Source of the DNA: Nakazawaea peltata
Taxonomy: Eukaryota > Ascomycota > Pichiomycetes > Alaninales > Pachysolenaceae
Assembly (NCBI GenBank): GCA_001599355.1
Contig: BCGQ01000009.1
Coordinates: 248,001 to 312,000 of the forward strand
Length of the DNA stretch: 64,000 nucleotides
Direction of reading: 5' to 3'
A model generated the notes under the pieces. The model had not been told where the DNA came from. It worked only from the letters and a program-made list of their open reading frames with translations, and ran no database searches. Made by a program: the position numbers and the translations under genes. Below are positions 5,153-64,000 of this stretch, one piece after another (position 1 is the first letter of the stretch; every line of letters starts with the position of its first letter).

Positions 5153-5251
5153 TAGCAAATTACAACTTTCTAACGACCCCTTGAAACCATAGCAATTTAC
5201 AACTTTTCATATCGAGATGCATTGTCCGACATTATCAGAGCAATTTACAAC
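5153..5251. repeat. Three copies of the GCAA-N-TACAAC motif in a convergent 3' region
   Basis: TAGCAAATTACAAC (5153), TAGCAATTTACAAC (5190) and AGAGCAATTTACAAC (5237) lie between two converging genes. The last copy contains the stop codon of the aldehyde dehydrogenase (5245-5247, minus strand). Being in 3' flanks, these copies need not be promoter elements. On the dehydrogenase mRNA they read TTGTAAATTGCT and would lie in its 3' end. Confidence 0.6.
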
Positions 5252-6750
5252 TTTCTCTTCAAGTTGAAATGAACGGCCTTGGCTTGTTGGTACATCAGCA
5301 AACCACTCTCACCCAACTCTCTACCGAATCCACTCATCTTAACACCTCCGAATGGAGCTCTGAAGTCTGAAGCGTTAGTAGCATTAATCCAAACTTGACC
5401 ACTTTGAACTTTTCTCAGGAATTCATGAGCCTTATCGATTCTCTCGGTGAAAATAGCAGCTCCTAAACCATATTCGGTATCATTGGCCAACTTGATAGCT
5501 TCCTCATCGGTCTTGAATTTGGAGACTGTGACAACTGGACCGAAAATCTCTTCTCTGATAATAGTAGAGGTCTGTGGGACATCTACAAAGATAGTTGGTT
5601 CGACGTAACAACTCTCTTCTGGGAATCCGGATGGAGATTGTCCTCCTAAGATCACCTTATTACCTTCTTCCTTACCGATGTTAATGTATTTCAAGATTCT
5701 TTGTTGTTGTACTTTAGAAACTTGAGGTCCAATATGGGTGTCCTTAGCAAATGGATCACCTGGTTTGTAAGTAGATTGAACTTCCTTCTTGAATAACTCT
5801 ACGAACTTGTCATGGATGGACTCGTGCAGGTAAATTCTGGAGGTAGCAATACAGATTTGTCCCATATTGTACATAATTCCAAAAGCAGCCCATTTCAGCA
5901 GTTGTTCCAAATCGGCATCTTCCAGGATGATCAATGGAGATTTACCTCCACATTCCATAGTGACCAGCTTCAAGTTACTAGCAGCCAACTTTTGGATTTG
6001 TTGTCCAACCAGAGTAGATCCGGTGAATGACACCTTATCAATGTCGGTGTGCAGCAGAATGGCAGCTCCAGCAGTGGCTCCAAATCCGGTGACAACATTG
6101 AAGACACCTTTAGGGAAACCAGCCTCAACGAACAACTCGGCGAATTTCAATAAAGACAATGGGGTGTTCTCGGCAGATTTCATCACAATAGTGTTACCGG
6201 CAGCCAACAGAGGAGCGATTTTCCAAGCGGCCATACAAATTGGATAATTCCATGGGATGATCTGACCACAGACTCCGTATGGAATGTATTCATAGTAGAC
6301 AAATTTGGAATCATCTGCAGGCACAGTCTTTCCGTGTGACTTGTCAGCAAATCCAGCATAGTATCTGAAGGTATTGACCGAATAATCAATGTCATAAATG
6401 GTGTTGGTATATCTTGGTTTTCCACTGTCGATGGTCTCGATATCGGCGATCAACTCACGGTTGGCTTCCAACAAATCAGCCAATTTGTACAACAATTTAC
6501 CTTTGTCAGTACCACTCAAAGCACTCCATTCAGTCTCGAAAGCCTTACGAGCAGCCTTTACTGCAATATCAACATCCTCCAGAGATCCCAGGTAAACGCT
6601 GCAGATCGTCTTTCCAGTAGAAGGGTCGGAGGTCTCGAAAGTCAGACCATCTGAGGATTTGACGAATTCGTTGTTGATGAACAAACCAGTTGGCTGGTCG
6701 TATGTGGTCCCGGTAGGGAGGGTGATAGGAACTTTCAAATCCAAACTCAT
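5245..6750 (-). CDS. Aldehyde dehydrogenase, cytosolic type
   Basis: NAD(P)-dependent oxidation of aldehydes to acids. The family motifs are complete: IIPWNYP (Asn168), FTGST, MECGGKSP with the general base Glu266, and the nucleophile Cys300 in NMGQICIATSR. No mitochondrial presequence is evident. I chose the ATG at 6750, because MSLDLKVPITLP matches the usual start of yeast cytosolic Ald proteins; an in-frame ATG at 6777 adds nine residues. Several CTG codons sit at family alanines (6052-6057, 5896-5901). It is flanked on both sides by related zinc-cluster genes. Its promoter has a TATA box and two GATAAG sites. Substrate cannot be told from the sequence. Confidence 0.92.
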   Translation of the reverse strand: MSLDLKVPITLPTGTTYDQPTGLFINNEFVKSSDGLTFETSDPSTGKTICSVYLGSLEDVDIAVKAARKAFETEWSALSGTDKGKLLYKLADLLEANRELIADIETIDSGKPRYTNTIYDIDYSVNTFRYYAGFADKSHGKTVPADDSKFVYYEYIPYGVCGQIIPWNYPICMAAWKIAPLLAAGNTIVMKSAENTPLSLLKFAELFVEAGFPKGVFNVVTGFGATAGAAILLHTDIDKVSFTGSTLVGQQIQKLAASNLKLVTMECGGKSPLIILEDADLEQLLKWAAFGIMYNMGQICIATSRIYLHESIHDKFVELFKKEVQSTYKPGDPFAKDTHIGPQVSKVQQQRILKYINIGKEEGNKVILGGQSPSGFPEESCYVEPTIFVDVPQTSTIIREEIFGPVVTVSKFKTDEEAIKLANDTEYGLGAAIFTERIDKAHEFLRKVQSGQVWINATNASDFRAPFGGVKMSGFGRELGESGLLMYQQAKAVHFNLKRKL

Positions 6751-7359
6751 CGTTTCAATGTCTTTAGAGTTAAGCATCGGAAGCGCTCTTGGCTGTCCGC
6801 CTGGGGTCTCCGCCCAATTTATACTTTTTCCCAGCCAAGGCGCGCGGAAGATTTTAAGCGATAACTAGAGAGAATTCCGCGATGATGAGGGCAGAAGCGA
6901 TAAGGGCATGAGGGCAGAAATGATAAGACGAGGGGGGAATAAGTGATGGGGATATAAAGAGGGGAAGAATTATTTGGGGTTGACATTTCATTACAGGACC
7001 GTTCCTTACGCTTCAAAATCATTGCTAACTTCTTCTTGCTATTTTACTCCATTTGTATCACCTTCCTTAACTCCTTCCTGTTTTCCGACTTGTGGAGTCG
7101 ATCAAGAATTTGCCCTTTTTCAAGTTTGCGCAATGAAAATTGCCCTTAGCGCATCTCGCATCGATTAGATTTAGGATTTTAACATCATAACACCAATGCG
7201 TAACATCATAACACCTGATCTCATCTAACCCCCAATTAGCCCCCAAACTAGCTTTCGTCTGGTCCACACCTGGTCCACACCTACTCCCTATTCGTTCCAC
7301 TCCCACTCACTACTCCTACAACATACTCTACACTTCTCATCATAACATCCATATATAAT
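6751..7359. promoter_or_regulatory. Promoter region of the aldehyde dehydrogenase
   Basis: Read on the minus strand, a TATAAAT box lies at about 6817-6823, some 70 bases before the ATG. On the plus strand GATAAG occurs at 6899 and 6922 (GATA-factor type sites), and AGGGG (stress-element type) at about 6932 and 6961. At 7227-7246 there are two CCCCCAA units of the second intergenic motif family. The distal part belongs to the 3' flank of the next zinc-cluster gene. The factor assignments are inference from consensus only. Confidence 0.5.
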
Positions 7360-11279: not shown

Positions 11280-13583
11280 TTACAAGTATCTTTTAACCTT
11301 CTCCTCTTCATAAACTTCGACTGTATCACCTTCAGTGAAATCCAGCCAATTTTTAAATGCGAGACCACATTCGGCTCCCTTTTTAACCTCATTAACTTCA
11401 TCCTTCTCACGCTTCAATGAGTCCAATTCACCTCTCCAAATCTCAGCACCAGCTCTCATGACACGGACTTTAGAGTTACGTTTCAAGGCTCCATCTTCAA
11501 CTCTACAACCTGCAACTTTGACCTTTTGACGACGGACCGAGATCTCAAATACCTGTTTAATATCAGCCGTTGCAAGGGTCTTAAGTTCATAAATAGCCGG
11601 TAATTTACTAGTCAATTCCTCCATCACATCCTCAATCAAATGATAAATCACATTGAACTCTTTTAAGACGACACCCTTACGAGCAGCAAGGTTTCCGATT
11701 TCTTTAGGGATTTTGATGTTAAAACAGAGTATACAAGCATTTGCTGCGGCAGCTCTTTCGAGATCCGACTCGGTTGGCAGTCCTACATCATGGAAAAGAA
11801 CCTGAGATTGAACTTCTTCGTTTCCCAATCCAGAGATACTCTCTACGATCAGTTCTGCCGATCCAGAAACATCGGCTTTTACAATATATGGAACTTGGAT
11901 GATCTCGGTCTTAGTGTTGTCTTCGTGTAATTCCAGATACTCCTCGTTATCACGAACATCTTCGATAGTCAAACCTAATTTACTCAACTCATCCAACTTG
12001 GCCTGTCTACGAGCCAGAAGGACCTCTTTCATTCTCATTTCGTTCAACAGCAAGACATTTTTCAGGTTCTCGATCAGCTCAGCACGTTCGAGACGACTAG
12101 CGACAACTTTCTTAGCAAGCAGTTCATCTTTCAGTTGGATAGCAGAGTCACCAGCTTCTGGTAACTCTTTCCAACCGGTTACTTCTACGGGAGTTGAAGG
12201 ACCAGCTTGTTTAATCAGCTTACCAAACTCATCTTTCATACTTTTCACTCTACAATAAGAGGTACCAGCAACAAGGACAGCTCCTGGTGTCAACAAACCA
12301 CGAGTAACAAGGAATGTAGCTACATTACCAAGCCCTTTTTTGACTTGTGATTCGATTACCCAACCTTCTACTGGGGTTTTCTTGGTGTTCTCAGCTTTCA
12401 AGTCCTGGATTTCAGCTAAGGTCACAATGGCTTCTTCTAATTCTTCCATTCCCAACCCAGTTTTACCACTTACTCTTACAGTTTGAACATCACCTCCATA
12501 GTTTTCGACATCTACTCCATTCTGGGATAAGTCGGCAATGACTTTATCGAAATTCAGTTGAGGTTTATCACATTTATTGACTGCGACGATCATCTGAACA
12601 CCGGCATTCTTCAGATGTTTGATCAGCTCCTTAGTTTGGGGCATCACAGAGTCATCAGCAGCCACTACAAGTACTACGATATCGGTGATATTGGCTCCTC
12701 TTTCTCTCATCTTTAAAAACAGAGCATGTCCAGGAGTGTCCAAGAAGGTAATGGTCTTCTTAGATGAGGGGGTCTTCACACTGAACGCACCAATGTGTTG
12801 AGTGATACCTCCATGTTCACCTTCTACAATACTAGACTTTCTTAAATAATCTAAAATAGTCGTTTTACCATGATCAACATGACCCATAATGGTCACGATT
12901 GGAGCTCTTGGTTTCAAATCTTTCTCAGAGACAGGCAGCGAGACAAGCTCTGGGCCTGAATCTTCGTTGATCGAGGCTTCGAATCCATACTCATCAGCAA
13001 TCAATGCAGCTGTCTCATTATCCAAAATGAAGTTATATGTCATGTTCTCGAACCCGAGCCCTTCCAATTTCACCAATAAATCTTCGGTTCTAACTCTCAA
13101 GATGTTGGCTAAATTGGCTACCGAAAGGAACCCTGGAATGGTGATTTGGACCCTTTGTTCGGTGTCTTTCTTGACCTCTTCCTTTACAGGTCTGGATTCT
13201 GTCTTCTTTTGCTCGGTATTCAGGGCAAATTCCTCGGCAATCTTCTTGATCTCCGAGTCGACACTCTTTGGTATCTTTTTTGTCTTTTTAGGGGTATTTT
13301 TCTGAACATTTTGAGGTTTGGCCAGAGGTTTCTTAGGTTGCTGTTTCGGTTTCAGCACAATAACAGTATCTGGATTACTCTTAGAAACTGTTTTCACCTT
13401 CAATACCTCAACTTTAGTCCCTTCTGGCTCCTGTTTCTCGACCTGTGGCGTCAAATTCTTCTGAAACTTCGAAGCTCCACGTCTCTTAACGGCCCAAATC
13501 GGGCTAGTCACATGCAAATTTCTCACACATACACCTTCGACACTCACTCTCCGTGAAAGTCCAGCTACTGATCTACCAAACAT
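11280..13583 (-). CDS. IFM1: Mitochondrial translation initiation factor IF2
   Basis: 767 codons. An N-terminal basic, Ser/Arg-containing presequence suits mitochondrial import. A Lys-rich linker and an IF2 N-domain follow. The GTPase domain begins at [14 protein letters not shown] (G1), then FLDTPGHA (G3) and VNKCDK (G4), followed by the C-terminal beta-barrel and IF-2 domains. The protein brings formyl-Met-tRNA to the mitochondrial ribosome. Two CTG codons fall at near-invariant IF2 alanines: residue 288 (DTPGHA-x-F, 12720-12722) and residue 343 (DKPQ-x-N, 12555-12557). These are key evidence for CTG = Ala. It converges on TSR4 with a 285-bp gap that holds nothing notable except one CCCCCAAA unit at 11067. 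Confidence 0.95.
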
Positions 13584-16479: not shown

Positions 16480-17265
16480 TTATTTCATTAACTCATCGAT
16501 AGCTTCTTCATCGGCAGCAGCAGCTTCTTCTTCATTTTGGGCGTTGTCGTCTTCATCGACATCATCAACGTCATCCATCAAGCTCTCATCATCATCAAAG
16601 CTTTCATCGTCGTCGTCATCATCATCTTCTTCCTCCTCTTCTTCTTCGTCATCATCATACCAGAACTCATCATCAACAACATCATCTTCATGATCATGAT
16701 GTGTTCCAGATCCGTACAGTGTAGAACTCAGAGTTGGCATGACAAAATCCTTAGGAATATCTTGCTTCGATCTCTCAACCTCTTGTAATACTCTAGCCTT
16801 ATATTTCTCATGGTCTTTTCTCCAATCAACGGCGGCATCGACATTAGCTGGCGAAGAAATATTAGGGTCTTCCAATAATGAAACAATCGAGATTAAAACA
16901 CTCTCAACAGTCTGCAGAGGAGACCAAGTCTCGGAATCTGGTTCGTCCGAAGTCGGGTCACCGCCCTGATGCAAAATCGAGATACACAACCGGCCATCAC
17001 GATAAACGTTTGGATGATATATTGGCGGGGTGAATCTGAAAGTTGGTGGACTGTATGGGAAATCAGTTGGGAATTTCATTTGCAGTTTGAAAAAGCCGCC
17101 GTGGTAAACCGAATCTTCGTTTAATACCATAACGCCGATATTCCACAAAAAGATATTATCATCAGCCAACTCAATATGGAAGGAAGGGACTCCCTTCTTT
17201 GGATCGGTCAACTCTCTGAATTGTCGCAACAAAAGCGACCCAGCTGCCGAGGATGTCTGTGCCAT
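16480..17265 (-). CDS. CDC34: Ubiquitin-conjugating enzyme Cdc34
   Basis: 261 codons. The UBC fold has HPNVYRDGRLCISILH with the catalytic Cys94. It is followed by the acidic loop insertion (GGDPTSDEPDSETW) that marks Cdc34/Ubc7-type enzymes. The long C-terminal tail is almost wholly Asp/Glu (about 200-255), as in Cdc34, where it binds the cullin Rub/SCF surface. With SCF it ubiquitinates cell-cycle inhibitors. Its 3' end lies 149 bp from SLM4, tail to tail. The acidic tail is encoded by GAT/GAA-type trinucleotide runs (reverse strand TCATCATC), which may vary in length. Confidence 0.95.
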   Translation of the reverse strand: MAQTSSAAGSLLLRQFRELTDPKKGVPSFHIELADDNIFLWNIGVMVLNEDSVYHGGFFKLQMKFPTDFPYSPPTFRFTPPIYHPNVYRDGRLCISILHQGGDPTSDEPDSETWSPLQTVESVLISIVSLLEDPNISSPANVDAAVDWRKDHEKYKARVLQEVERSKQDIPKDFVMPTLSSTLYGSGTHHDHEDDVVDDEFWYDDDEEEEEEEDDDDDDDESFDDDESLMDDVDDVDEDDNAQNEEEAAAADEEAIDELMK

Positions 17266-18507: not shown

Positions 18508-19473
18508 ATGTTTACCCCAGTTGAGACTACCATAGGAGCACTGTTGATCCAGTTTGCGACAACTTCATACCTTATGACCACAGGGAAGACAATTGGATTC
18601 TCTTCTGTTTTGTCCGGATTTTTCAAGGCTCCAAACGTCCACAATGTTTCTATTACTGCTGGATTGGTGTCGTCGGCGGTCTTTGCTATGAAGATGGGAC
18701 TCAGTTTACCTGTGTTCCCACTGAGTTTTGGGTTGGCAACTTATGTTGTAGCCGGGTTCTTAGTCGGAATTGGAACTAAACTTGCCTCCGGCTGCACTTC
18801 CGGTCATATGGTCAATGGGTTGAGCAGATTAAGGATCCGTAGCTTGATTTCCGTGATGATTTTCGTTCCTACTGCTATGGTGACTACTTATATACTTAAT
18901 TCCACCGACTTTAACTGTGGAATAGTACCATGCTACCAAACAGTTTTACCTTCTGAGCTGACCAGACTGTTCTTGACCAATATCTCCTATGTCCTGATGC
19001 CTTTGAACTACATAGTGTCTCCATTAATTGCCAAATGGTGGGGCCAACTTAAAATTGTAGCACTGCTCAATAGTTTCATTTCTGGATTCACTTTCGGTTT
19101 GGGTTTGATCATCTCCGGTATGAGTGATCCAGCTAAGACCATCGCTTTCCTCAATATCCTTACTCCGTCGAATTTCGATCCTTCTTTAATGTTAATCCTC
19201 TTGTTCCTGGTCATTCCTAATATGATCATCTGGAGATTTATGGTTTTGAATAAACCAGGTCCTCTCAATGGCTCCGGTCAATTTGATCTTGCTATGTCCA
19301 CCGAAACACCTCCTAAATTCTTATTGGGATCGGCCATTTTCGGTGTAGGATGGGGAATTCTGGGGATCTGTCCCGGTCCTGGTATTCTTGGAATGGTATT
19401 TAATACACCTCTGTTCTCAGCTGCTTGGGTTGGAAGTTTCATACTTGGTAATATTGCCGGAGGCTACGTTTAA
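18508..19473 (+). CDS. YeeE/YedE (TsuA-like) sulfur-compound transporter
   Basis: 321 codons from the ATG at 18508; a longer frame would need a non-ATG start. Strongly hydrophobic, with about nine to ten membrane segments in two similar halves. Each half has a Cys-containing signature: GTKLASGCTSGHMVNG in the first and GILGICPGPGILGM in the second. These are the conserved Cys motifs of YeeE/YedE proteins, of which bacterial TsuA takes up thiosulfate. Fungi have such genes, usually thought to derive from bacteria. Substrate and membrane are inferred. A TATA box lies about 115 bases upstream. Confidence 0.8.
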   Translation: MFTPVETTIGALLIQFATTSYLMTTGKTIGFSSVLSGFFKAPNVHNVSITAGLVSSAVFAMKMGLSLPVFPLSFGLATYVVAGFLVGIGTKLASGCTSGHMVNGLSRLRIRSLISVMIFVPTAMVTTYILNSTDFNCGIVPCYQTVLPSELTRLFLTNISYVLMPLNYIVSPLIAKWWGQLKIVALLNSFISGFTFGLGLIISGMSDPAKTIAFLNILTPSNFDPSLMLILLFLVIPNMIIWRFMVLNKPGPLNGSGQFDLAMSTETPPKFLLGSAIFGVGWGILGICPGPGILGMVFNTPLFSAAWVGSFILGNIAGGYV

Positions 19474-35857: not shown

Positions 35858-37156
35858 TTATTCTTTATACCAATCTTTAATCTCACTAATCTCGAGATTT
35901 GGTCTAGCAGCTCTTGACTTGATCTTAGTAGGCCATTCAGGGTTGTGTCTCCAAGTCCATTTAGAAACGAGCTCTGGGTCAAGTTTATCTTGTAATTTAT
36001 CTACAATATACCTACCTATGTTCCCCAAGAACTTGTAGCCATGACCAGAGTCACCACAACAGACCAATACTTTTGATCCAGGAATGTAATCTATGAGGAA
36101 ATTGGAGTCGACAGTGTCACTGATCCAGCAGGTTTTGGATTCGACAAGCTTATGGTTTGAGAGCTCAGGAAGTAACAATGAGATTAACTTCCTTACATGA
36201 GCTACACCTGCCTCCAGAGGGAAAGTATCATCCTGGAAATGAGTTTTGAACCGAGGAAGAGAGCTAACCTCACCGGTAAGTTTGTTATCGACGGTGTTCT
36301 TTGTATCACAAAAAGTCATTGCGAATTTAAGTCTCTTTTTATCGGCATCTGGAGGGAAGAAGTAGCCTAATTCTGCACTGAAGAAGATCGGGAACTCTTT
36401 ATACTTTTCGTATTCCAGATCATTCAATTGCAAATGGGAAACGAAGATCCCGGTCGATTTGATCTGGTTTTGTAAATTAACTACATACCCAGTACTAGCA
36501 CCCATGGCAAGGATGATTTGGTCAGCTTTATAAATGGCACCGGACTCTACAGAAATGGTATTAGCTTCTTTATCTATACTGACTACTTTCCCTTCGTCAC
36601 CTACTTTAAAAATGACCCCATTATCTTGACACAGTTTCAGTACTGAGACCAACGACAGACCAGCGATACCGAAACCGGTGTCAGGATTGTATTTGATCTC
36701 TACAGAACCCAATTCTTGGAACAATGTACTGTCCTTGAATATAGGAAACTTGGAGCTCAATTCCAGATCAGATTTTATCGACTCAATTTTACTTGGTGCA
36801 ACCCCCAAATCTATCAAATTCTGAACCCCTTGGTTCTCATACTGCAGTCTATGAGCATTGGCAGCATTGGAAGGCGATAGTGTAAGTCTGCCACTCTTAA
36901 CAAAGTATGGACGCAAAACTGGATCACTTTCCCATTGTTCCAAAGCTTCTAAAGCCATCTTCGAATATACGATATCGCTGTACTCGGCCCTTATAATCTT
37001 GTTATAATCATTGGCGGCAGACCATTTGGAGGGAACTTCATAAGCGTCTAAAGCTAAGATTTTTTTGCCAGGACAACGTTTGGTGAGTTCCCACAGTGTC
37101 GACAACCCAAAGACACCACATCCAACAATAATATAATCCCATTCAACTTCTGACAT
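35858..37156 (-). CDS. FAD-dependent amine oxidase (fructosyl-amino-acid / sarcosine oxidase type)
   Basis: 432 codons. The Rossmann motif IIVGCGVFGLST (9-20) is followed by a DAO fold. Near the C-terminus CCGDSGHGYKFLGNIG places a Cys at the position used for covalent FAD attachment in amadoriases and sarcosine oxidases. KSGRL, FVSHLQL and WISDTVDSNFLID are further family-like blocks. Likely reaction: oxidative deglycation or demethylation of an N-substituted amino acid, with H2O2 formed. No C-terminal SKL-type peroxisomal signal is present. A Reb1-type site lies about 140 bases upstream. Confidence 0.8.
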   Translation of the reverse strand: MSEVEWDYIIVGCGVFGLSTLWELTKRCPGKKILALDAYEVPSKWSAANDYNKIIRAEYSDIVYSKMALEALEQWESDPVLRPYFVKSGRLTLSPSNAANAHRLQYENQGVQNLIDLGVAPSKIESIKSDLELSSKFPIFKDSTLFQELGSVEIKYNPDTGFGIAGLSLVSVLKLCQDNGVIFKVGDEGKVVSIDKEANTISVESGAIYKADQIILAMGASTGYVVNLQNQIKSTGIFVSHLQLNDLEYEKYKEFPIFFSAELGYFFPPDADKKRLKFAMTFCDTKNTVDNKLTGEVSSLPRFKTHFQDDTFPLEAGVAHVRKLISLLLPELSNHKLVESKTCWISDTVDSNFLIDYIPGSKVLVCCGDSGHGYKFLGNIGRYIVDKLQDKLDPELVSKWTWRHNPEWPTKIKSRAARPNLEISEIKDWYKE

Positions 37157-37848
37157 TGTTCTTACTCGATAACGCTGTTGATCATCGGCTATCGGCCAAG
37201 AAGTACGATAATCTGCTCATGAAATATTAAAACTAGTTGCTCATGAAAAATGAAAACTCAATGCTCATCAAATACGAATACATTCCCGAGGCTTGTTACC
37301 CGGCCTGCGCGAAAAATTTTTCCTTCTCACAATATAAAAGGAGCTCATCTCCTTTACAATTCTTTTCTAGAAAAAGTATCATCAGTAGTGGTTATACTAT
37401 CTCAATAATAAAGATATATAACATACTATAATTCATAGGGACCTTAAAGTGGTTTTTTGAATGAGACATTAGGTTTCTTTCTCATAAAGACCACGCTCAG
37501 CTAAGTGTCGTTTGACTTTTTTAACAGAAAAGCCACAATCAACATTTCGTTTCCGGTTTCTTAGATTCAACGTGCGTTGCGGTAGTATGAAGGGGTTTAA
37601 TATTCAGTCCTGCTGGGTTGAGGTATGAACTTTCTGGCTGCTTGTGTCGCTACATATGTAAAGTAGTATTTTGATCGTAATTGATTCTGATTCTGATTCA
37701 GAGTCTTCCTTTAATTCTTCGTCTATCCTCTTAGTCTGTGTTTGATGTTTTATCACGATCTACGTTTATCTGCCTTAGCTCAGATTCTTATTCTACACAA
37801 TGATTTCGTTATTCAATTAAATATATACATATAGATTCATCATCTAGT
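37157..37848. other. 692-bp region between the FAD oxidase and PAM16; no gene recognised
   Basis: It holds three 24-base-spaced GCTCATGAAA-like units (37215, 37239, 37263), of which the third ends in AAATACGAAT, and a Reb1-type TTACCCGG at 37296-37303. A clear TATAAAAG at 37334-37341 lies on the plus strand with no plus-strand gene before 38519. On the minus strand an open frame of about 45 codons ending at 37469 reads ...KKVKRHLAERGLYEKET, without a credible start. GATTCT is repeated at 37683-37700. An unrecognised non-coding RNA is possible. Confidence 0.4.
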
Positions 37849-38518: not shown

Positions 38519-41245
38519 ATGTCGAAACCTGGTATTACTGACGATCAAGATGCTGCGGCGTTATTGATGTTGTTTCAGAGGCAGTCAAATGTTCCGGCAT
38601 CGGAACAGCCAGAGGCGCCGGAGGCCAAACAAGTCACTGGTGAGGGTGAGGCAATAGCTCAGGCAACAACCCAAGAGACTGCTCCGGAGTCTGCTTCGGA
38701 GAGCGCTCAACCAGCTACTCTCGCATCTGCTCCAGTGTCCGCTCCAGTGTCCGCTCCAGTGTCCGCTCCAGAGATCAAAAGTGAATCCCAGAACATCCCT
38801 TCACAGAACCTCGATCAATCTAAACCTACCAAACCTGACTTATCAAATAATTCAAGTGGATCTTCAGTGCCGCGACTTTCACCTAAAGAAAGTGGGAATA
38901 GCAACTTCTCTACATCACCGGGACCGGCAGCTGCTCTGTTGGCTGGATCATCTGGCAATGGAGGTGTTGATCTGAAGAATCCAAGTAATATCAAACTGAT
39001 GGTCGCTGCTGCTGCTTTGGCAGCTGCTCTGGCAACACCATTTCCCTTAGTGCAGGTGTCTAGAAAGGAGGTAGTTAGTGAGGAGGTGGTAAGTGGAGCA
39101 CAGGTGGTTAGTAAAGCTGAACTGGTGGCTGATTCGCAACCAGTGGCTGAACCCCAAACTGTGGCTAAAACCGAGCCAGTGGCTAAGACCGAGCCAATGG
39201 CTAAGACCGAGCCAATGGCTGATTCGGTGGCTGATTCGGTGGCTGTAGTGGCTCACCCCGAACTAGACGACGACCCCTCAGGCTCAGAATCTTCATCTTC
39301 AGCTCCCGAACCTACTGACTCAGCCGCTCCTCCTACTGCCCCTACCGACACCCCCGACGAATCCTCCTACTACACCGACCCAGACTCAGGAACAATCGGT
39401 TGTGTTTGCGAATACGATCACGATGACGGCTTCACCATCCAATGTGACAGATGTTATAGATGGCAGCATGCAAGCTGTATGGGTATTGAGTCCATGGAAG
39501 AAGTTCCTGAGTTCTACTTATGTTATCTTTGTGATAAATCTCGTAAAGTGAACAAATCCAAAGCTAGAGAAACTCAGAGAGATTTCTTAATGCCTAACAG
39601 TCGTAGAAAGAGACTTAATAGTCTTGATAGTGAAGCACTTCGTGAGGAGATTGTTCTGCAAGTGAGAGCGACGCCTGGGGATTCAGATTCAGATTCGAAG
39701 AGAAGATCTAAGGATTCTTCGGTACCTCAAAGTTCAAGTACAACCACTTCAGCTGGAACAGTCACTACAACTGGAACAACCACTTCAGTTCCTACTTCAA
39801 CTGTAAGTGGAACTTCAGGTGGTGTCAAGACTGGCCGTAAACCCAAACAATTACCTAAAAAAGAGACTCCAGACGCAGTTGATGATTCGGAACTTTTCAC
39901 TAGCTCCAAAGATGGATATAAAACAGCTTATTTCCCACTCAGTAACTCCGAGTTCCGTAATGAAATGACCAAGATATATTTCCAAAGGTTATCAGAGGCT
40001 GCTTCTTCCACTTCTAATAACCTCCCATTCCAACCCGTCCGTGATATCACCTTAAATGAGCTCAAAAAGCGTACCCAGAAAGTGAAATTCACTATCAAGC
40101 CGTTTGGAGATAATCTGAAGATGAGATTCTCGGGATTCTCAAGATTCTCGTTCACCCTCGAAACCTCGGTCTCAGAAGGCGACTTCATCATCCCAATAAT
40201 CGGAGAAATCCAATGGAAACAAGATTATATAGACAACCCATTCAATCATTACAATATTTGGGGGGTTTCCAAGCCGAAAGTGGTGTTCATTCCCAACATT
40301 CCCTTCGCCGTGGACAGCAGATACTCGGGAAATGAACTGAGGTTTATTCGTAGATCGTGTAATCCGACTTGTGAGGTGAAACCAGTCTTAATTAAGAATG
40401 AGAATCGGTTAGTATTTGTCGTGGTACCTTTAAGACCACTTAAAAGTGGCCAAGAAGTCACCTTACCATGGGAATGGGATCCTATCCATCCCATCAACAA
40501 GATAATTGGTGGGAAAACTTTCGATCAGTTAGCCGACGATGAAAAACCGGTATTGGTTCGCTCCATTGAGACCATTTTGAACAGCTGTGAATGTGCTTGT
40601 AGTAATAACAATGAATGTTACTTATACAAGGTGAGAAAATCACTTCTGTATCTCTACAGATCAACCAGGAAAGTCAATATCCCCACCTTTGGTAATAATA
40701 TGAGTAAATATCTGGACGTTTATCGTCAAAGAGATGAGTCTTATTTCATTCCTATCAAAGAGAGATTGGATAGTAGAGATGAGAAGATCAGACTGAGCCA
40801 ATCTGAAAGACAATCGGTCTCTGATCCAAGACATGGAGATTTACTTACCACCGCCAACACCACAGATCTTGAACTGAAGAAAGATTTCATCCTTAGTAAA
40901 CCAAAGACCAATATTTATACTAATATGGACAGTTCGTTGTTGCCATACAAATATCGATTAGCACAGCAAAGTCAAACACTGACCATCGGGATCCAAGGGA
41001 TATCTCAACCTGACCAACTGTCAACTGATATCAACCCAGATACCAATGATATCTCATTAGATCCGTACCCAATTCCAATCCCAATTCTTAAGAAAGTCAC
41101 TACCAGAGTTAGCAGTGTATCAGGAGATATTGGGATTGTTTCTGGCGGTTCAGTATCACTGGTGGCAACGACAGAGACGGCAACTAAACCTCCAATCAAG
41201 AAGAAGATGAGTTTGAAGGATTATATGAAGAGTAAGAAGAAGTGA
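38519..41245 (+). CDS. SET3: Set3-type PHD and SET domain protein
   Basis: 908 codons. A low-complexity N-terminus (Ala/Pro/Glu, tandem repeats) is followed by a PHD finger at about 297-342 (CVCEYDHDDGFTIQCDRC ... WQHASCMG ... CYLC). The SET domain lies at about 520-665 (GDFIIPIIGEI, FIRRSCNPTCEVKP, GQEVTLPWEW). PHD-SET order and the degenerate SET domain match Set3, the core of the Set3C histone deacetylase complex that acts at 5' ends of genes and on meiotic genes. S. cerevisiae Set3 is 751 residues; the extra length is in the N-terminal repeats. Unlike active SET enzymes, catalysis is not expected. Confidence 0.88.
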   Translation: MSKPGITDDQDAAALLMLFQRQSNVPASEQPEAPEAKQVTGEGEAIAQATTQETAPESASESAQPATLASAPVSAPVSAPVSAPEIKSESQNIPSQNLDQSKPTKPDLSNNSSGSSVPRLSPKESGNSNFSTSPGPAAALLAGSSGNGGVDLKNPSNIKLMVAAAALAAALATPFPLVQVSRKEVVSEEVVSGAQVVSKAELVADSQPVAEPQTVAKTEPVAKTEPMAKTEPMADSVADSVAVVAHPELDDDPSGSESSSSAPEPTDSAAPPTAPTDTPDESSYYTDPDSGTIGCVCEYDHDDGFTIQCDRCYRWQHASCMGIESMEEVPEFYLCYLCDKSRKVNKSKARETQRDFLMPNSRRKRLNSLDSEALREEIVLQVRATPGDSDSDSKRRSKDSSVPQSSSTTTSAGTVTTTGTTTSVPTSTVSGTSGGVKTGRKPKQLPKKETPDAVDDSELFTSSKDGYKTAYFPLSNSEFRNEMTKIYFQRLSEAASSTSNNLPFQPVRDITLNELKKRTQKVKFTIKPFGDNLKMRFSGFSRFSFTLETSVSEGDFIIPIIGEIQWKQDYIDNPFNHYNIWGVSKPKVVFIPNIPFAVDSRYSGNELRFIRRSCNPTCEVKPVLIKNENRLVFVVVPLRPLKSGQEVTLPWEWDPIHPINKIIGGKTFDQLADDEKPVLVRSIETILNSCECACSNNNECYLYKVRKSLLYLYRSTRKVNIPTFGNNMSKYLDVYRQRDESYFIPIKERLDSRDEKIRLSQSERQSVSDPRHGDLLTTANTTDLELKKDFILSKPKTNIYTNMDSSLLPYKYRLAQQSQTLTIGIQGISQPDQLSTDINPDTNDISLDPYPIPIPILKKVTTRVSSVSGDIGIVSGGSVSLVATTETATKPPIKKKMSLKDYMKSKKK
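38728..39250. repeat. In-frame tandem repeats in SET3
   Basis: Two arrays: a 12-base unit GCTCCAGTGTCC (three to four copies, 38728-38770, SAPV) and an 18-base unit GTGGCTAAGACCGAGCCA (three copies, 39161-39220, VAKTEP), followed by 12-base GTGGCTGATTCG (two copies). Copies are nearly identical at DNA level, so recent slippage is likely. Confidence 0.8.
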
Positions 41246-47126: not shown

Positions 47127-48719
47127 ATGTCAACTGGATCTATTCCTCGTAGTGTGGTCGGTTTTGCCGTACCAAAGATATTCTCCACTTGGGCTGGAAC
47201 TTTCTCCTGTAAACCCCTGGGGTATTTCCAACCGGAGACCATCGACCAAATTATCACATTAGTAAAATCGGCTAGAGAATCCAAAAAGACTTTGATGGTC
47301 GTGGGTTCTGGGCACTCTCCTTCGTTTATGCACATCACTAAGGATTGGATTGCGAATCTTGACAAATTCCAGAAGATTATTGAAGTCAAGCCTCACGAAT
47401 CGGGCAAATACACCGATGTTACCGTCGAAGCAGGTATTAGAATTTACCAATTGAATGAGTTCTTGGCCACTAAAGGTTTACTGATTCAAAACTTGGGTTC
47501 CATTTCTGAACAGTCCATTGCTGGTATTATCTCCACCGGTACTCACGGATCTTCTCCTTATCATGGATTAGTCTCATCTCAAATCGTTGACTTGACCTTA
47601 GTCAACGGTAAAGGTGAATTAGTCAAATGCTCTCCACATGAGAATCAAGATTTGTTCAGAGGTGCCTGTTTGGGTTTGGGTAAGTTGGGTTTGATTGCAT
47701 ACGCCACCATTAGAACTGTCCCTCGTTATCAAATCAAATCCACTCAAGAAGTTATCTCATTCGATACCTTGTTAAAAGTATGGGACACTGTCTGGACTGA
47801 GAAGGAGTTCCTCAGAATCTGGTGGTTCCCTTACACCAAGAGATGTATTTTATGGAGAGCATCTAAATCTGAAGAACCTCTTTCTCTGCCAAGAAGCTCT
47901 TGGTATGGAACCAAGTTCGGAAGATTCTTCTACGAGTCCTTGTTGTGGATATCTGTTCATATCTTCCCTAGATTTACTCCTTACGTTGAAAGATTTGTAT
48001 TTGGTAGACAATACGGTTTGACCGAGACTATTGGTCGTGGTGATGTCGCTGTTCAAGAGTCAGTTGATGGTTTAAATATGGATTGTTTATTCTCTCAATT
48101 CGTCAACGAATGGGCTGCTCCATTGACCAACGGTCCAGAAATCTTAAGATCCTTAGAACGTTCCATTGACGCTGCTGCCAAGAGTGGAGATTTCTATGTC
48201 CATGCTCCAATTGAAGTCCGTTGTTCTAACACTACAGTCTCTGGTTCATTAGAAGACCCAGATGTCTCGGCAAGAACCACTGTCTCGGCAGGTGCTGTCA
48301 CTGGTAACAATTTACGCCCATTATTAGACAACACTCCAAAATTAAAGTACGTTCCACAAGATTCCGTCACTAACTCTCAATTGACTTTATACATCAACGC
48401 TACAATGTACAGACCTTTCCGTACCAATTCGCCAATTGGAAAGTGGTACCAAATTTTCGAAGAGACTTTGGACGCTGCGGGAGGAAGACCTCATTGGGCT
48501 AAAAATTTCATTGGAAAGAAAGAATATTTACCTGAGTCTCAAATTAAAGAATCATATCATGATGGTGAAATGATCGGGTTTGCAAAGAAGATGGACGAAT
48601 GGTTAGGTGATGACCTCAAGAAGTTCAAGGAATTGAGAAGAGAGCAAGACCCAGACGGAGTCTTCTTAAGTGGTAAGAGATGGGCTGTTATTAACGGTAT
48701 TGTCGACGATACCGACTAA
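47127..48719 (+). CDS. ALO1: D-arabinono-1,4-lactone oxidase
   Basis: 530 codons. The VAO-type FAD domain has VVGSGHSPS, whose His carries the covalent FAD, and NLGSISEQSIAGIISTGTHG. The C-terminal ALO domain includes RIWWFPYTKRC and GRPHWAKNF and ends EQDPDGVFLSGKRWAVINGI. The enzyme makes the last step of D-erythroascorbate synthesis in the mitochondrial outer membrane, with H2O2 formed. Codon 119 is CTG (47481-47483) where family members read GLAIQNLGS, again an Ala position. Codon use is otherwise biased (few CTG), suggesting good expression. PGA3 follows on the same strand 176 bp downstream. Confidence 0.95.
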   Translation: MSTGSIPRSVVGFAVPKIFSTWAGTFSCKPLGYFQPETIDQIITLVKSARESKKTLMVVGSGHSPSFMHITKDWIANLDKFQKIIEVKPHESGKYTDVTVEAGIRIYQLNEFLATKGLLIQNLGSISEQSIAGIISTGTHGSSPYHGLVSSQIVDLTLVNGKGELVKCSPHENQDLFRGACLGLGKLGLIAYATIRTVPRYQIKSTQEVISFDTLLKVWDTVWTEKEFLRIWWFPYTKRCILWRASKSEEPLSLPRSSWYGTKFGRFFYESLLWISVHIFPRFTPYVERFVFGRQYGLTETIGRGDVAVQESVDGLNMDCLFSQFVNEWAAPLTNGPEILRSLERSIDAAAKSGDFYVHAPIEVRCSNTTVSGSLEDPDVSARTTVSAGAVTGNNLRPLLDNTPKLKYVPQDSVTNSQLTLYINATMYRPFRTNSPIGKWYQIFEETLDAAGGRPHWAKNFIGKKEYLPESQIKESYHDGEMIGFAKKMDEWLGDDLKKFKELRREQDPDGVFLSGKRWAVINGIVDDTD

Positions 48720-49882: not shown

Positions 49883-50071
49883 GGTCAAATATAATGAGTT
49901 CCATTATGGAAATATTATGATATTCAAATAAAAGGTGATATTCTATATACATTGTTGTAGATTAGTTCTGGATCGCTGCTTGAGCAGTTCGGGATTAGTT
50001 ATCGATCAATTGACTTCATCTCTTATCTGATTTGACTAGCCCCCTCTTGGAAATTTAAAAAAAAAAACTTT

Positions 50072-50143
50072 GGACGAGAACGGAGTCGAACCATTGACCT
50101 TCTGCTTGCAAGGCAGACGCGCTACCAACTACGCCACACGCCC
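50072..50143 (-). tRNA. tRNA-Ala (anticodon TGC)
   Basis: 72 nt. Acceptor GGGCGTG pairs with CTCGTCC and includes the alanine identity pair G3:U70. There is one U6-U67 mismatch. D arm GCGT-GCGC, anticodon stem TCTGC/GCAGA with loop CTTGCAA (anticodon TGC), and T arm AATGG/CCGTT with loop TTCGACT. Discriminator A73. A T-run on the transcribed strand (complement 50059-50068) follows as Pol III terminator. No intron. Confidence 0.95.
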
Positions 50144-50630
50144 ATTTTTCTCTGTATAATTAAGAGAAAACGGTACATATGGTTTCCTAAAAAAATGTAA
50201 ACTTTATTACTGGAAATGTACATTATTACTCAAAATGGAAGTTATGTTGACTGATGGGCTTGACAGTTTAATATGAGAAGACAAGCTTCAATAAAGGTAC
50301 TTATATGAGCCAATGGAAATGAGGAGTTCTGATATTATGTAGTTCAAGTTTGAATGGTATCTTTCTTCGATTAGCTGATTACCTCCCCTAAAATGTGGAT
50401 ATTTAAATAATATTTATATATAATTTTTCAAGTGAATTGGGGGTTAAAATTAGATTTAATTTCGGTGTTAATTTCAGGCTTCATTCAAGTATAAAATTAA
50501 AAGGAAAGATCAGAAGACATTCCATCATCAGATAGAGTTTTACAAAATAACCAACAATATTATCAATAAATGAAAGACATCTTCAATTATGACACAAATA
50601 CTAAAACTGAATTGGAAAAAAAAAAAGAAA

Positions 50631-50703
50631 TGGACGAGTCCGGAGTCGAACCGGAGACCTTTCGCATGCTAAGCGAACGCGCTACCAACTACGCCACACG
50701 CCC
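50631..50703 (-). tRNA. tRNA-Ala (anticodon AGC)
   Basis: 73 nt. Acceptor and D arm are identical to the tRNA-Ala(TGC) gene 490 bp away, including G3:U70 and the U6-U67 mismatch. Anticodon stem TTCGC/GCGAA with loop TTAGCAT (anticodon AGC, read as IGC), T arm TCCGG/CCGGA. A T-run follows (complement 50616-50626). No intron. Confidence 0.95.
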
Positions 50704-51028
50704 CAATTTCTGGAAGAAGAACTCTGTTTGTGCTTCATACACATAACCTCAGATCTATCCGGCGATATCCCTTTGGTAACACCGAGGTCTCGTCAGGACC
50801 AGCCGGACCTGCTACCGTGCATAATAATCTGCTATTGAAACATGCCAAGGCGCACACTGTAGAAGCGTTTCCCGCTCTTACAAGCCTTATCGGGCATCTC
50901 CTCCTGCCCAATTGGGAAGTTGGCCGATCGATAACTTAAAATTTAACTTTAAAGTTAGGGGTACAAGTTTGAGTATTTAAAGAGCTCAAAGTGAAGAGGA
51001 GAGTAATTGGAAAGGCTAAATACAAAAA

Positions 51029-52294: not shown

Positions 52295-52299
52295 ATAAA

Positions 52300-53811: not shown

Positions 53812-54315
53812 AATGAGGGCAGTGGAAATGATGGGATACGTTCAATGAGTGGAATGTGATTTTTGATAGCTTCAAATTGGGCCCTGATTTTTGTTAGGCT
53901 GAAAATTTAAGGTGAAAAATTTAGGTGAGCGATAAGCTGATAAGGAAAAGAGGAAAGTATAGCCGACGGAGATCTGAGGTGATTGGAGGGGGGTGATTGG
54001 GGGTGATTGGAGGGGGTATTGGGGAGATATTGGAGGGGGGTGCTGGGGAGATATTGGGGTGAGAGATGGAGAGTAAGAAGGTGAATAGGAATGAGAAGTG
54101 AAATTTGTAGGGGTGATTGGTTTGTATGGGTAAGTGGGGTAGATTGGAGGGGAATTGGATTGGGGGTGATTGGGGGTGATTGGGGGTGATTGGGGGTTAG
54201 AAGATTGGGAATTAGAAGTGGACGGTTAGGAGTGGAGGGGCTAGGAGTAGAGGCCACCGTGAAGGCCAGAACCAGTTTAACTAAAGCCAATAAATATATA
54301 TTCAAGTATAAATAA
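53812..54315. promoter_or_regulatory. Dihydropyrimidinase promoter with GATA sites and a G-rich repeat field
   Basis: GATAAG at 53931-53936 and 53939-53944. From 53980 to about 54215 the strand shown is G-rich, with about thirteen TTGG units in two forms, GATTGGGGGT(GATT) and ATTGGAGGGG. Near the end GATTGGGGGT repeats four times at a 10-base period (54159-54200). A minus-strand open frame of 145 codons here is pure Pro/Ser/Thr low complexity and is not a gene. Confidence 0.7.
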
Positions 54316-56374: not shown

Positions 56375-58477
56375 CTATCCACTCTTTGCCATCACTATCG
56401 CAGTCCTAGATGGAATATAAACCTGGATATAATTCTCCCGACCGTTCCATTCAAAAGGTGTGGAGAAATGTTCTACCGAGGTGTCAATACGTCCGTGACC
56501 TCCAAATTCTTTATCGTCAGTGCTTAGAATCACCTTAAATTTCCCCGAGCCGTTGAGACCCACGCGATAGTCAGTATAAGACAGCGTGGGGTGGAAATTG
56601 AAAACAAAAAGCAACCCATGACGTTCATAAACAATAACTTTATCTCCCTCATGTTTGAGAGAAACGTAAGCAGGCTCGAAATTCAACCACCCATACTTCA
56701 GCTCGGCATGATTCATGGCACAGTCGAACTTGTAGAGAAACTTATACCTCAATAAATCATCGTCAATCAAGTTAAATTGTCTACGCAGATAATGATAAGA
56801 TTCTCCATTTCCAGCTCTTGGGAAATCGAGCCATTCAGGATGACCAAATTCGTTCCCCTCAAAGTTCAAGTAACTTTCTCCACCTAAACTATGAGTGAGG
56901 AGTCTTATCATTTTATGGAGCAGCATTCCTCTGTCAATTACCGGGGTCAATTCACTCAAAATCGACATATTCGTATACATTTCTTTATCCATTAACCAAA
57001 ACAGTAAGGTTTTGTCTCCTACAAGAGCCTGGTCGTGCGACTCCAGGTACAGAATACACTTCTCTTTGTATCTACGATTAGTAAGCGAGTGAACAATCTT
57101 GTTCATATCCCAATCTTCATCTCGAGTATGTTTAAGAATCTTGATCCACATATCTGGGATGAACATCAGTAAACGATAGTCGAATCCTACACCACCAGAA
57201 GATCTAGGAAGACATAAAGTAGGATATCCACTTACATCTTCGGCAATTGTAGTGATCTGAGCCGATTTAGATTTACCAAACAGGTGACACAAGTCATTCA
57301 GAAGCATAAGATAAGCTAAAGCTTCTCTATCTACGGGGGAATTCGGTCCAAAATACTCATGGTATCCACCAGAGAACCCTTCTCCGATTCCATGATGAAC
57401 ATAGAGCATACTGCTCACACCATCGAATCTGAACCCATCAAATTTGTACTCATCCAAGTAGAAACGAAGATTGGAGAGTAAAAATCTCAAAGTTTCGTAG
57501 TTTCCGTAGTTGAAAAGACGGGAATCCCACTGGTCGTGGTTACCTTTACCTCCAGAATGGAAATAACAGTAATCTGTGCCGTCGAACATGTTCAAACCGT
57601 CTTCTACGTTCTTACTAGCGTGAGAATGGACCACATCGAGTAATACTCTGATTCCCATGCCGTGAGCAGTGTCGATGAGATGTTTGAGGTCTTCTGGAGT
57701 ACCGAAACGGGAGCTAATGGCAAAGAAGCTCGTCACCTGGTACCCGAATGAGGCATAGTAGGCATGCTCCATGATAGACATGAGCTGGATCGTGTTATAA
57801 CCGAGTTCTTTGATTTTGGGTAAAATATTGGCGGTGAACTCGGCGTAGGAACCGATTTTTGGCTCGGGAGTCGAGATTCCAACATGGGCCTCGTATATCT
57901 TCAACGATTCTGGAGTTTCAGGACGTTTGTTCTTGAATTTGTACGGGGTTTCAGGGTTCCAGAACCGAGATTCATAGGCTGAAGTTCCATATTCTTTAGG
58001 AGGAGCCGTAGCACGACGAATCCAAGCAGGAAGACGGGCGATTTTCTCTCCGGAACTCAACGTGAGTAAGATCTTGACTCTGGAATCATGTGGGATAGCA
58101 CATTGACCATCCTTGGTAGCTGGGACTATCAAATGGAAGGAACCAAACTCATCTTTCTTCATAGGATTCAGAGTGTGACTCCAGTCATTGAAATCACCGA
58201 TTAAAGCGGCCGCAACGGCCAGTGGGGCGTATTCCTTGTATGTGACGGAATTGTCTGCCAAGACATTGAATCCGAAATGTTTGTAACCCTCTGAGAAGCT
58301 CAAGATCCCATGCTCATGTTCATTGAACTTCTTCAAGAAGTCGTCCAGGAGGGATCTGCGGTAGAGAAGTTCTCCGACGTGGGGGGTAAGCCAAGGGTCG
58401 ATGTCAATTGCACCTTTTACGGCCTCTGGGATGTGTTGTTCTTCACTTGGGGGGTTTGTGGGAGCTTCTGAGGCCAT
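56375..58477 (-). CDS. GLC3: Glycogen branching enzyme
   Basis: 700 codons from the ATG at 58477; upstream frame extension needs a non-ATG start. CBM48 at about 75-170 ([20 protein letters not shown]), then the GH13 barrel with [32 protein letters not shown] (nucleophile Asp) and [10 protein letters not shown] (acid Glu), and SHDQ. It transfers alpha-1,4 glucan chains to alpha-1,6 branches in the cytosol. Two CTG codons fall at family alanines: residue 437 (YRLAMAIPD position, 57167-57169) and residue 519 (RGIALHKM position, 56921-56923). It is divergent from MIM2. Confidence 0.95.
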
Positions 58478-59152: not shown

Positions 59153-59216
59153 GTCATTTTCATGAAAAATCGCATATTTATAACTTTATATAACATCTAA
59201 TCCAGTTAGATTTATT

Positions 59217-60814: not shown

Positions 60815-61981
60815 ATGCACCCGTTCCTTGCATCGTTCCTCACTTTCCTCGTGCTTTTGGGCATCACAGTGCTCATCCTCTTTGGAGATTTGCCTGGCTT
60901 CCAAGGAACCCCTGTTGCCCGGGCTCGTCGGTCACTTATAAGTGCTGCGAAACGGGTCTACACTATCTTTCGAAGCTTAGATACACGGATATGTGGTGGA
61001 AATATCCATAAAATCTTTGGAATCACCTTGTATCGCTACTATTTCTGGCTTGCCCCAGCTTTTTATCTGATTTTGTTTGTCATGTTGCTGTATCAGTTCT
61101 ATATTCACAGCTTTGTGAGGATCCCAAGAGGGTTCTGGCATGATCTTATGATCCATCTGAGTCTTGCCATCAACCTGGTGTCTTTCATTTTGCTGATTAT
61201 CACCGATCCTGGAGATCTGTCAACTGTCAATCCCAAAGATTACTCTGATAAATTCCCTTATGACGGAGTCATCTTCCATAAACATGGAAACTCCAAGGAT
61301 TCTTGCCGGACTTGCCACATTCTAAAGCTCCCAAGATCCAAACATTGCTCTCAATGTGGTAGGTGCTACATTTTGTACGATCACCACTGCATTTGGTTGA
61401 ACAATTGTGTCGCCTATTACAATTACAAATATTTCCTCACCTTCTTGGGATCATTAGTATGGATTTTTGTATATGGAGCTGTACTAACAGGTGGTGTATT
61501 GGTGAAAGAGATGTCTAGATTACGTCAGGACCCCAATTCATCATTCTCATCCCTCCAAACCCGCTCATTATCGTCTATTTTCCATAACTATTTCCATCTC
61601 GTAACCCATTCTTCTCTCAGTAACGAAAGGACAGGCATGGTCTTCGCCTTATGTGCTCTTCTTGCTCCAGTAGTTGCCTGGTTCACATTTGAACATGTAC
61701 AGTTCCTTTATTTGGGCACCACCACCAACGAGTCGCTGAAATGGGATTATATCTCCCATTTAGTCCGCTGTAATCTGCTCTATAGAGATACTCAGACCAA
61801 TAATTTGGCCATTCAGTTTGAAGGACGATTCTGGATGTTGTCTGATGATGAAACAGAGTATTTCCCTACTAGAGGTCATCAAATGGAGCCAATTACCGAT
61901 ATGGCGATCCAATTGGATAATATATATGACCGGGGATTTTGGCAAAATGTGAAGGAGAGATTTATAACTCCGAGGTTATGA
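60815..61981 (+). CDS. SWF1: Swf1, DHHC palmitoyltransferase
   Basis: 388 codons. Four membrane segments are visible, at the N-terminus, at about 75-95, 110-130 and after the DHHC domain. The Cys-rich domain reads CRTCHILKLPRSKHCSQCGR then YDHHCIWLNNCVAYYNYKYF. The N-terminal hydrophobic start and the IWLNNCV form are typical of Swf1. Swf1 palmitoylates SNAREs such as Tlg1 and Snc1 next to their membrane anchors at the ER. S. cerevisiae Swf1 is 336 residues. Confidence 0.88.
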   Translation: MHPFLASFLTFLVLLGITVLILFGDLPGFQGTPVARARRSLISAAKRVYTIFRSLDTRICGGNIHKIFGITLYRYYFWLAPAFYLILFVMLLYQFYIHSFVRIPRGFWHDLMIHLSLAINLVSFILLIITDPGDLSTVNPKDYSDKFPYDGVIFHKHGNSKDSCRTCHILKLPRSKHCSQCGRCYILYDHHCIWLNNCVAYYNYKYFLTFLGSLVWIFVYGAVLTGGVLVKEMSRLRQDPNSSFSSLQTRSLSSIFHNYFHLVTHSSLSNERTGMVFALCALLAPVVAWFTFEHVQFLYLGTTTNESLKWDYISHLVRCNLLYRDTQTNNLAIQFEGRFWMLSDDETEYFPTRGHQMEPITDMAIQLDNIYDRGFWQNVKERFITPRL

Positions 61982-62578
61982 ATAGAAGATGCCTCGAACT
62001 ACAATTTGTATCCTACGATCTTCGAGACAAATTCTCTTAGACTACTTCTCTGAGACTACTTCTCTGAGACTACTTCTCTGAGACTACCCCTCCCAGACTT
62101 CTGCCTTTGAGGCCACTTTCCGGTATCCAAACCTTGTGTATATTTTTATCTATTTGATCAATTAAATCTCTATATTGATCTATAATGAATGATTATGATT
62201 ATGAAACTGTAGGAAGGGAAACAGTAATGACTAGTACATTCTTCTGAGCGTTTATAACTGGAAGCTACTCTATCATCATTGCCCAAGCCATCCCCAATCT
62301 CTCCTATACTTCAATTTCTGTCTTCACTCTTGCTCACGAAAGGTTATGAGCCCCCAGGAAAGAGTAATTGATAACCACAAGTTCAGATAGATGGGAATGA
62401 TGAAGTTCAATATTCATTGATCAAGAACTAAAGCCCCACCATGGCATCTCTACAACACACTAAATCTCAATTCTTATATTTTACAAACTAATTCTATATC
62501 ATATTTAAGATAAATAATGTCAACTTACAAGTCAATTCACCATAAATATTCCATGGCAATCACATCATCTAGACATGA
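61982..62578. other. Convergent intergenic region SWF1 / flippase with 14-base tandem repeat
   Basis: 597 bases. ACTACTTCTCTGAG is repeated three times and then partly (62041-62089). The rest is plain AT-rich sequence without an open frame or RNA gene that I can support. Confidence 0.7.
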
Positions 62579-64000
62579 CTAAACACCATGCTTAACGCTA
62601 ATGGATCTCCTACCATTCTTCTCCTCAAAATGCATAGGAATCTCTTGAGTATTGACGGTCAAAGTACTTTCATTGACCAAATGCTCAATACCATGACCCC
62701 TCTCGGCCAAATCTTCTCCGCCAAAACTGAAATCATTGTAATCACGATTACCAACCATTTCAGCAAGTGGAACCTTATCCTCATAATCATTAATAGGATC
62801 CCATCCCATCTTAAGACGTTCACGAATAATAGTGATGTCCTTAGGCCACATATATTCATGAATAACATTGTAGATGAACCTAGGAATAAGACACATGATA
62901 ACTCCGACAAAACAACATGCCCAGAATGAAAGTGATCCATAAAGTTGATGGGCACTATCATAGAATTCACCGGAATAAGTTGCCGAAGACCAAACTCCAG
63001 TCCACCCGAATACAATCAAGATAGACAAAGCAATAAAGAGCAACGACAACCAATCCCAACGTTTTTGGTTCATCAAGATATACAAATTACACGACACAAT
63101 CGCAATTGTAGATACCATAGCTCCCATCAAGTATCTATGATCAAGAGTCAAAGCATTTTGAGTCACAAAGTTATGCTTGTAATAAACCCAATATGGATAG
63201 AAGAAAGAAATCACCGATTGGTAGAATGCATCGGTCATATACCACCAGAACTTGGTCATGGTCCATTCACTTCTCAAAATACCTGTTTGATATAATTGCG
63301 GAACAAGAATCGATACCGTATCACTGACATCTTGGTCCAAAACTCCCAAGAAAATGACAGGTAACGAGGTGAACAGCAAGTTATAGAACATCAAATAAGT
63401 ATATTCGAACAAATAAGACCCGTCAAAGTCATTGTAGATTCCATACCAGAATAACAGAATGGTGAAAATGACATTCTTATAAAAGAAACTTGGAATCATC
63501 TCCGCAAGACGTTTATAAGACCATCTTCCATGGACAAGAACTAATCTAGTAAGGAATCTAAATTGACCAAAGGCATAATCCGAAGACATTACGGCAGCAC
63601 GACCTTCTTCTCCTGCGATTCCTACACCTACATCGGCTGCTTGGATCATGGCCACATCATTGGAACCATCTCCAATAGCCAAAGTCATAACTTTCAAGTC
63701 ATTCTTCACCATCTTGACCACGGCAGCCTTCTGAGCCGGTGAAACACGACAACAAAGCACGGCTTTACATTGTTTACAAAGCAAAAGGAACTTTCTCTGG
63801 GTCTCTGAATCTTTCAAAGCCAACTTTAACAGATCTCCATCAATAATTAATCCAAAATTTCCATGTGGAGGTGAATGATCTTTTCTAGCATCTTCTAATT
63901 CCGCAAAATTTCCTTGCATACCGAAGTATTTGTCCAAATAAACCTCAATTGTTCTAGTAACAAGCTTTTTAGGATTAGAATTGAGCTCGGCCAGTTCACC
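62579..64000 (-). CDS. DNF1: P4-ATPase aminophospholipid flippase, C-terminal part (Dnf1/Dnf2 type)
   Basis: The frame is open to the window edge (473 residues), so the N-terminal two thirds are outside. Visible are IIDGD, CCRVSPAQKA, the hinge LAIGDGSNDVAMIQAADVGVGIAGEEG, and about six membrane segments, with NDFDGSYLFEYTYLMFYNL typical of Dnf1/Dnf2. These flippases move phosphatidylcholine and phosphatidylethanolamine inward at the plasma membrane with Lem3. Three CTG codons match Dnf alanines (63830-63832, 63455-63457, 63374-63376). Dnf1 and Dnf2 cannot be told apart here. Confidence 0.9.
   Translation of the reverse strand, partial: GELAELNSNPKKLVTRTIEVYLDKYFGMQGNFAELEDARKDHSPPHGNFGLIIDGDLLKLALKDSETQRKFLLLCKQCKAVLCCRVSPAQKAAVVKMVKNDLKVMTLAIGDGSNDVAMIQAADVGVGIAGEEGRAAVMSSDYAFGQFRFLTRLVLVHGRWSYKRLAEMIPSFFYKNVIFTILLFWYGIYNDFDGSYLFEYTYLMFYNLLFTSLPVIFLGVLDQDVSDTVSILVPQLYQTGILRSEWTMTKFWWYMTDAFYQSVISFFYPYWVYYKHNFVTQNALTLDHRYLMGAMVSTIAIVSCNLYILMNQKRWDWLSLLFIALSILIVFGWTGVWSSATYSGEFYDSAHQLYGSLSFWACCFVGVIMCLIPRFIYNVIHEYMWPKDITIIRERLKMGWDPINDYEDKVPLAEMVGNRDYNDFSFGGEDLAERGHGIEHLVNESTLTVNTQEIPMHFEEKNGRRSISVKHGV

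Follow-up and report, generated by a model that had tools for sequence, protein, structure and literature searches.

We examined the codon CTG in a 64,000-nucleotide stretch of DNA (positions 248,001 to 312,000 of contig BCGQ01000009.1; hereafter the window). The window holds 34 long open reading frames (ORFs) with 16,534 codons, 307 of which are CTG (18.6 per thousand); if these are read as alanine, one alanine codon in four (25%) is CTG. Each of the three stop codons is used to terminate ORFs (14 TAA, 11 TGA, and 8 TAG in 33 ORFs). Seven genes supplied the scored columns. On the reverse strand lie genes for an aldehyde dehydrogenase (ALDH, 5245–6777, 14 CTG codons), a mitochondrial-type translation factor IF2 (11280–13583, 19 CTG codons), an E2-34 kDa-type ubiquitin-conjugating enzyme (UBC, 16480–17265, 4 CTG codons), a fructosyl amine oxidase-like protein (FADox, 35858–37156, 8 CTG codons), a glycogen branching enzyme (GBE, 56375–58477, 13 CTG codons), and the C-terminal part of a DNF1/DNF2-type flippase (62579–64000, 4 CTG codons), whose 5' end falls beyond the window. 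A YeeE/YedE-type (Sulf_transp) transporter gene with 9 CTG codons is on the forward strand (18508–19473). The meaning of CTG was established by column statistics in these genes, with at most eight of the 34 ORFs scored in any one test: no other residue scores as high as Ala in either of two sets of homologues, and the Pfam total is likewise higher with Ala than with Ser or Leu.

For the first homologue set, the proteins were translated with CTG as X and aligned by phmmer to homologues found in prokaryote genomes, both named and unnamed; every CTG column with at least 8 sequences then received a Codetta-style score for each of the 20 residues. Forty-six columns passed, from ALDH (14 columns, 39 homologues), IF2 (14 columns, 40 homologues), GBE (12 columns, 30 homologues), and the YeeE-type transporter (6 columns, 48 homologues). 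The five CTG codons of an M20 gene with only 6 homologues fell below this limit, and a ThrE-like gene with one bacterial homologue was left out. The summed log-odds were +22.3 for Ala, followed by Val (−28.8), Ser (−29.5), and Leu (−54.7), and each of the four genes taken singly chose Ala. Ala led Leu by 77.0 nats (bootstrap 95% interval 52–101) and Ser by 51.7 nats (31–73). When columns were drawn at random 10,000 times, matched by gene, no set gave Ala more than +1.7. The difference scores separate less well, the random sets reaching 72.5 for Ala minus Leu and 53.2 for Ala minus Ser, so that chance is more cleanly tested by the Ala score alone.

Eleven of the 46 bacterial columns are at least 70% conserved, and these comprise 7 Ala, 2 Val, 1 Phe, and 1 Gly, with no Leu and no Ser; in contrast, 35 of the 152 columns of other Leu codons hold a conserved Leu. 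This agrees with the statement of the original prediction that no CTG stands at an invariant leucine. In IF2, Ala occupies CTG residues 288 (12720–12722) and 320 (12624–12626) in 95% of the bacterial homologues, residue 324 (12612–12614) in 92%, residue 343 (12555–12557) in 87%, and residue 578 (11850–11852) in 37 of 37. The best solved IF2 match, a mitochondrial IF2 compared by eye, has Ala at 288, 324, 343, and 578; its residues at 320, 484, and 602 are Ser, Val, and Asp, respectively. Ala is likewise found at ALDH residue 190 (6208–6210) in 89% of bacterial homologues and in both scored eukaryotic relatives, and at residue 234 of the YeeE-type transporter in 90%. When the same scoring was applied to other codons, each masked in turn, the right amino acid came out for 53 of 55. 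The two exceptions were AGG (4 columns) and TCA (Ala 6.9 versus Ser 5.3); CGA, CGC, CGG, CTA, and TGC had too few columns.

The second set consisted of ten chains in five genes, taken from 25 alignments to Protein Data Bank (PDB) entries, and brought in the flippase, UBC, and FADox genes in addition to ALDH and GBE. We take these chains to be fungal or plant, the entries naming the molecules. Of 43 CTG codons 41 could be aligned, and the summed log-odds over these columns were +16.4 for Ala, −5.1 for Ser, and −39.4 for Leu. The 81 aligned residues include 29 Ala, 8 Ser, and no Leu. Ala led Leu by 55.8 nats (95% interval 41–71), scoring higher at 35 of the 41 columns, and led Ser by a modest 21.5 nats (3–39); on this set Leu is clearly excluded, and Ser less so. 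At GBE residues 393, 437, 476, 492, and 519 the two scored eukaryotic relatives both have Ala, as do two of two at FADox residue 21, and UBC residue 61 is Ala in its sole scored relative. The masked-codon control called 54 of 55 codons correctly, missing AGC (9 columns), and as in the bacterial control 5 of the 61 codons were short of columns. In both sets all Ala codons and all other Leu codons with enough columns were called correctly. Apart from a few with thin support, the other sense codons are standard.

Pfam profiles gave the same order. Ten of the 34 ORFs were scanned with CTG translated as Ala, Leu, or Ser, and the bit scores of the 20 main families summed to 2593.1, 2510.5, and 2541.7, respectively. 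Ala scored above Leu in 17 of the 20 families, the exceptions being IF2_N, UQ_con, and PhoLip_ATPase_C, where it scored lower; relative to Ser it was higher in 14 families, lower in 4, and tied in 2. Seven overlapping or borderline families were excluded from the sums. In two of them Leu was ahead of Ala (DUF1487, 25.0 versus 24.9; MMR_HSR1, 38.7 versus 37.2); among the others (Arf, GTP_EFTU_D4, NAD_binding_8, Pyr_redox_2, and Hydrolase_3) two were tied, and three had Ala above Leu or no Leu match.

These sequence comparisons indicate that CTG in the window almost certainly means alanine, the nuclear CUG-Ala code of NCBI table 26; the window is most likely budding-yeast nuclear DNA. The original prediction had reached this reading of CTG from eight single codons and two CTG pairs, all of which are in-frame CTG on the strand it gave, and had proposed scoring Ala, Ser, and Leu against family alignments, a check in which Ala came out best in the genes scored. 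Nine of its ten alanine sites hold up fully or in part. The two IF2 sites (12720–12722 and 12555–12557) do so with the frequencies given above, each taken over 39 bacterial homologues. The ALDH pairs (6052–6057 and 5896–5901) begin at columns where Ala has the plurality in bacteria (19 of 39 and 24 of 37), though at the first column one of the two scored eukaryotic relatives has Ser and the other Thr. Both GBE sites are Ala in the two scored eukaryotic relatives; at 57167, however, the bacterial residues are Asn (18), Met (10), and Ala (2), and at 56921 an unscored relative (u60180) has Gln. In the flippase, DNF1 and DNF2 both have Ala at 63830 and 63374, where a third relative has Thr and Phe, and 63455 is Ala, Ser, and Ser in the three. 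The ALO1 site at 47481 did not stand: it is Thr in three alignments, all to variants of L-galactono-1,4-lactone dehydrogenase.

Several other observations also weigh against alanine. Ala scored above Leu at 38 of the 46 bacterial columns and above Ser at 32, leaving columns at which it did not, and one or more random column sets exceeded the observed lead over Ser. Bacterial homologues favor Phe at ALDH residue 285, Val at ALDH 317 and IF2 484, and Gly at IF2 602, and the eukaryotic chains have Asp at FADox 131 and 314. PDB matches for a kinase, ALO1, and a DHHC protein, inspected by eye after scoring with one alignment per gene and excluded from the scores, gave Asn, Met, and Met at three kinase CTG sites and Lys and Thr at two ALO1 sites. 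At six sites of the DHHC protein, which aligned only weakly with ERF2, they gave Ile, Phe, Tyr, Leu, Thr, and Leu. These eleven sites thus include no Ala and two Leu. Ordinary codons scatter too, Ala being in the plurality at 76 of 136 GCN columns versus 14 of 46 CTG columns.

The leucine and serine readings were put through the same tests as alanine, and both were rejected on homologue and Pfam scores. A serine reading (NCBI table 12, as in Serinales or Ascoideales) draws on the eukaryotic set, in which Ser is second best, Ala exceeds it at only 21 of the 41 columns, with Ser scoring at least as high at the other 20, and some columns are rich in Ser (flippase 182, ALDH 241–242, UBC 179). Yet Ala is ahead of Ser in both sets and by 51 bits in Pfam, and none of the conserved bacterial columns is Ser, which makes serine a scarcely credible reading. 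That CTG is standard leucine, its alanine columns having arisen by chance, we regard as the most improbable of the readings, to be given almost no weight: Leu has the plurality at 2 of 46 bacterial columns and occurs at the two weakly aligned DHHC sites, but its sums are strongly negative in both sets, where the remaining Leu codons that could be scored give +9 to +74 for Leu, and it is absent from the scored eukaryotic residues.

CTG could also be read mainly as alanine with a minor share of leucine or serine contributed by a competing or mischarged tRNA, and Ser/Leu ambiguity at CUG is reported for Ascoidea asiatica. CTG columns do have a lower mean Ala log-odds than GCN columns (0.48 versus 0.80), but the difference is not significant (p = 0.11), GCA by itself scores 0.44, and Leu columns are not in excess in the scored sets. 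With no significant shortfall in likeness to alanine, the CTG columns give no clear sign of ambiguity, which we consider highly improbable. The surroundings of the codon did not discriminate among the readings: across the window, mean neighbor hydropathy is −0.74 for CTG, −0.25 for GCN, −0.37 for other Leu codons, and −0.42 for Ser codons, so that CTG neighbors are more hydrophilic and resemble those of none of the three. In the gene at 38519–41245, CTG lies inside two GCN (poly-alanine) runs, too few to count.

A further point against alanine is that a tRNA with anticodon CAG was not found in the window by ARAGORN, with long introns allowed, or by Rfam; the only tRNA genes found were tRNA-Ala(UGC) (50070–50144) and tRNA-Ala(AGC) (50631–50703), both on the reverse strand and neither a CUG reader. 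In overlapping mode ARAGORN also called a tRNA-Gln, with a 541-base intron, that covers both of these genes; it was taken as spurious. Just upstream of tRNA-Ala(AGC), a GC-rich non-coding block on the reverse strand (50736–50935) has, besides the tRNA, a sub-threshold Rfam match only (E = 0.86) and folds in no unusual way (z = −0.98).

Both tRNA-Ala genes carry the G3:U70 pair, which is an identity element for alanyl-tRNA synthetase. Alanine at CUG would most likely be inserted by a tRNA-Ala whose anticodon had mutated to CAG and which the synthetase would still recognize through G3:U70, and the ancestral tRNA-Leu(CAG) would no longer be in use. In the published Ala-clade species, CUG is read by a novel tRNA(CAG) that arose from tRNA-Ala by anticodon mutation (PMC5951914), and by analogy the tRNA of the present organism may have the same origin.

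The CUG-Ala code is an established one, described years ago. According to Krassowski et al. 2018 (PMC5951914), alanine reassignment was reported in 2016, and the only eukaryotic nuclear sense-codon reassignments known as of 2018 are those of CUG in three yeast clades. Pachysolen, Nakazawaea, and Peterozyma form one CUG-Ala clade there, as judged from BLAST predictions covering 52 species and, for 18 species, from mass spectrometry at key positions. The original prediction named the same three genera, in agreement with that paper and with taxonomy (order Alaninales). In later papers, the CUG predictions made for 453 of 462 yeast species match the known clades (Shulgina and Eddy 2021, PMC8629427), the order of the CUG-Ala yeasts is now named Alaninales (PMC11540330), and it contributes 17 genomes to a 1,154-genome study (PMC12322030). 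The window shares with this code CTG as Ala, a budding-yeast-like gene set, and otherwise standard scorable codons, a few thinly supported ones aside, and no difference from it came to light. The CUG-Ser codes reassign the same codon in the same subphylum, but the window columns fit Ala better. In Ashbya mitochondria, Leu-box codons are likewise read as Ala (CUU and CUA; PMC3874161); that case is mitochondrial, however, and concerns other codons, and in the window CTT scores as Leu and CTA has too few columns.

Other features of the window were observed in passing. The gene P0004 (52300–53811, reverse strand), which we take to be hydantoinase-like, has one CTG in 503 codons, at codon 2, versus the 18.6 per thousand found overall. 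Another product, P0013, is presumably a Rad10-like protein. The bacterial relatives listed for the YeeE/YedE-type sulfur transporter match its two halves separately, at 31–43% identity. Among 99 genomes sampled from the G005 phylum, two (L097 and L098) encode branching enzymes 47–48% identical to that of the yeast; the other 41 branching enzyme matches listed show 28–34% identity to it. The snoRNA snR37 (Rfam RF01267, E = 9.1e-16) lies between two genes at 37378–37657 (forward strand), and G-rich short tandem repeats lie between two others at 53978–54252.

The gene set, with a flippase and a ubiquitin-conjugating enzyme closest to DNF1/DNF2 and E2-34 kDa, suggests that the host is a budding yeast, probably a member of Alaninales. 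If it were a yeast from outside that order, nuclear CUG would have been reassigned to alanine a second time, independently of the known case, which is very unlikely; that occurrence of the code would be new, and otherwise it is already known. The interest lies mainly in the choice of translation table, which matters for annotation and comparison: the standard table would put Leu in place of Ala at every one of the CTG codons of the 34 ORFs.

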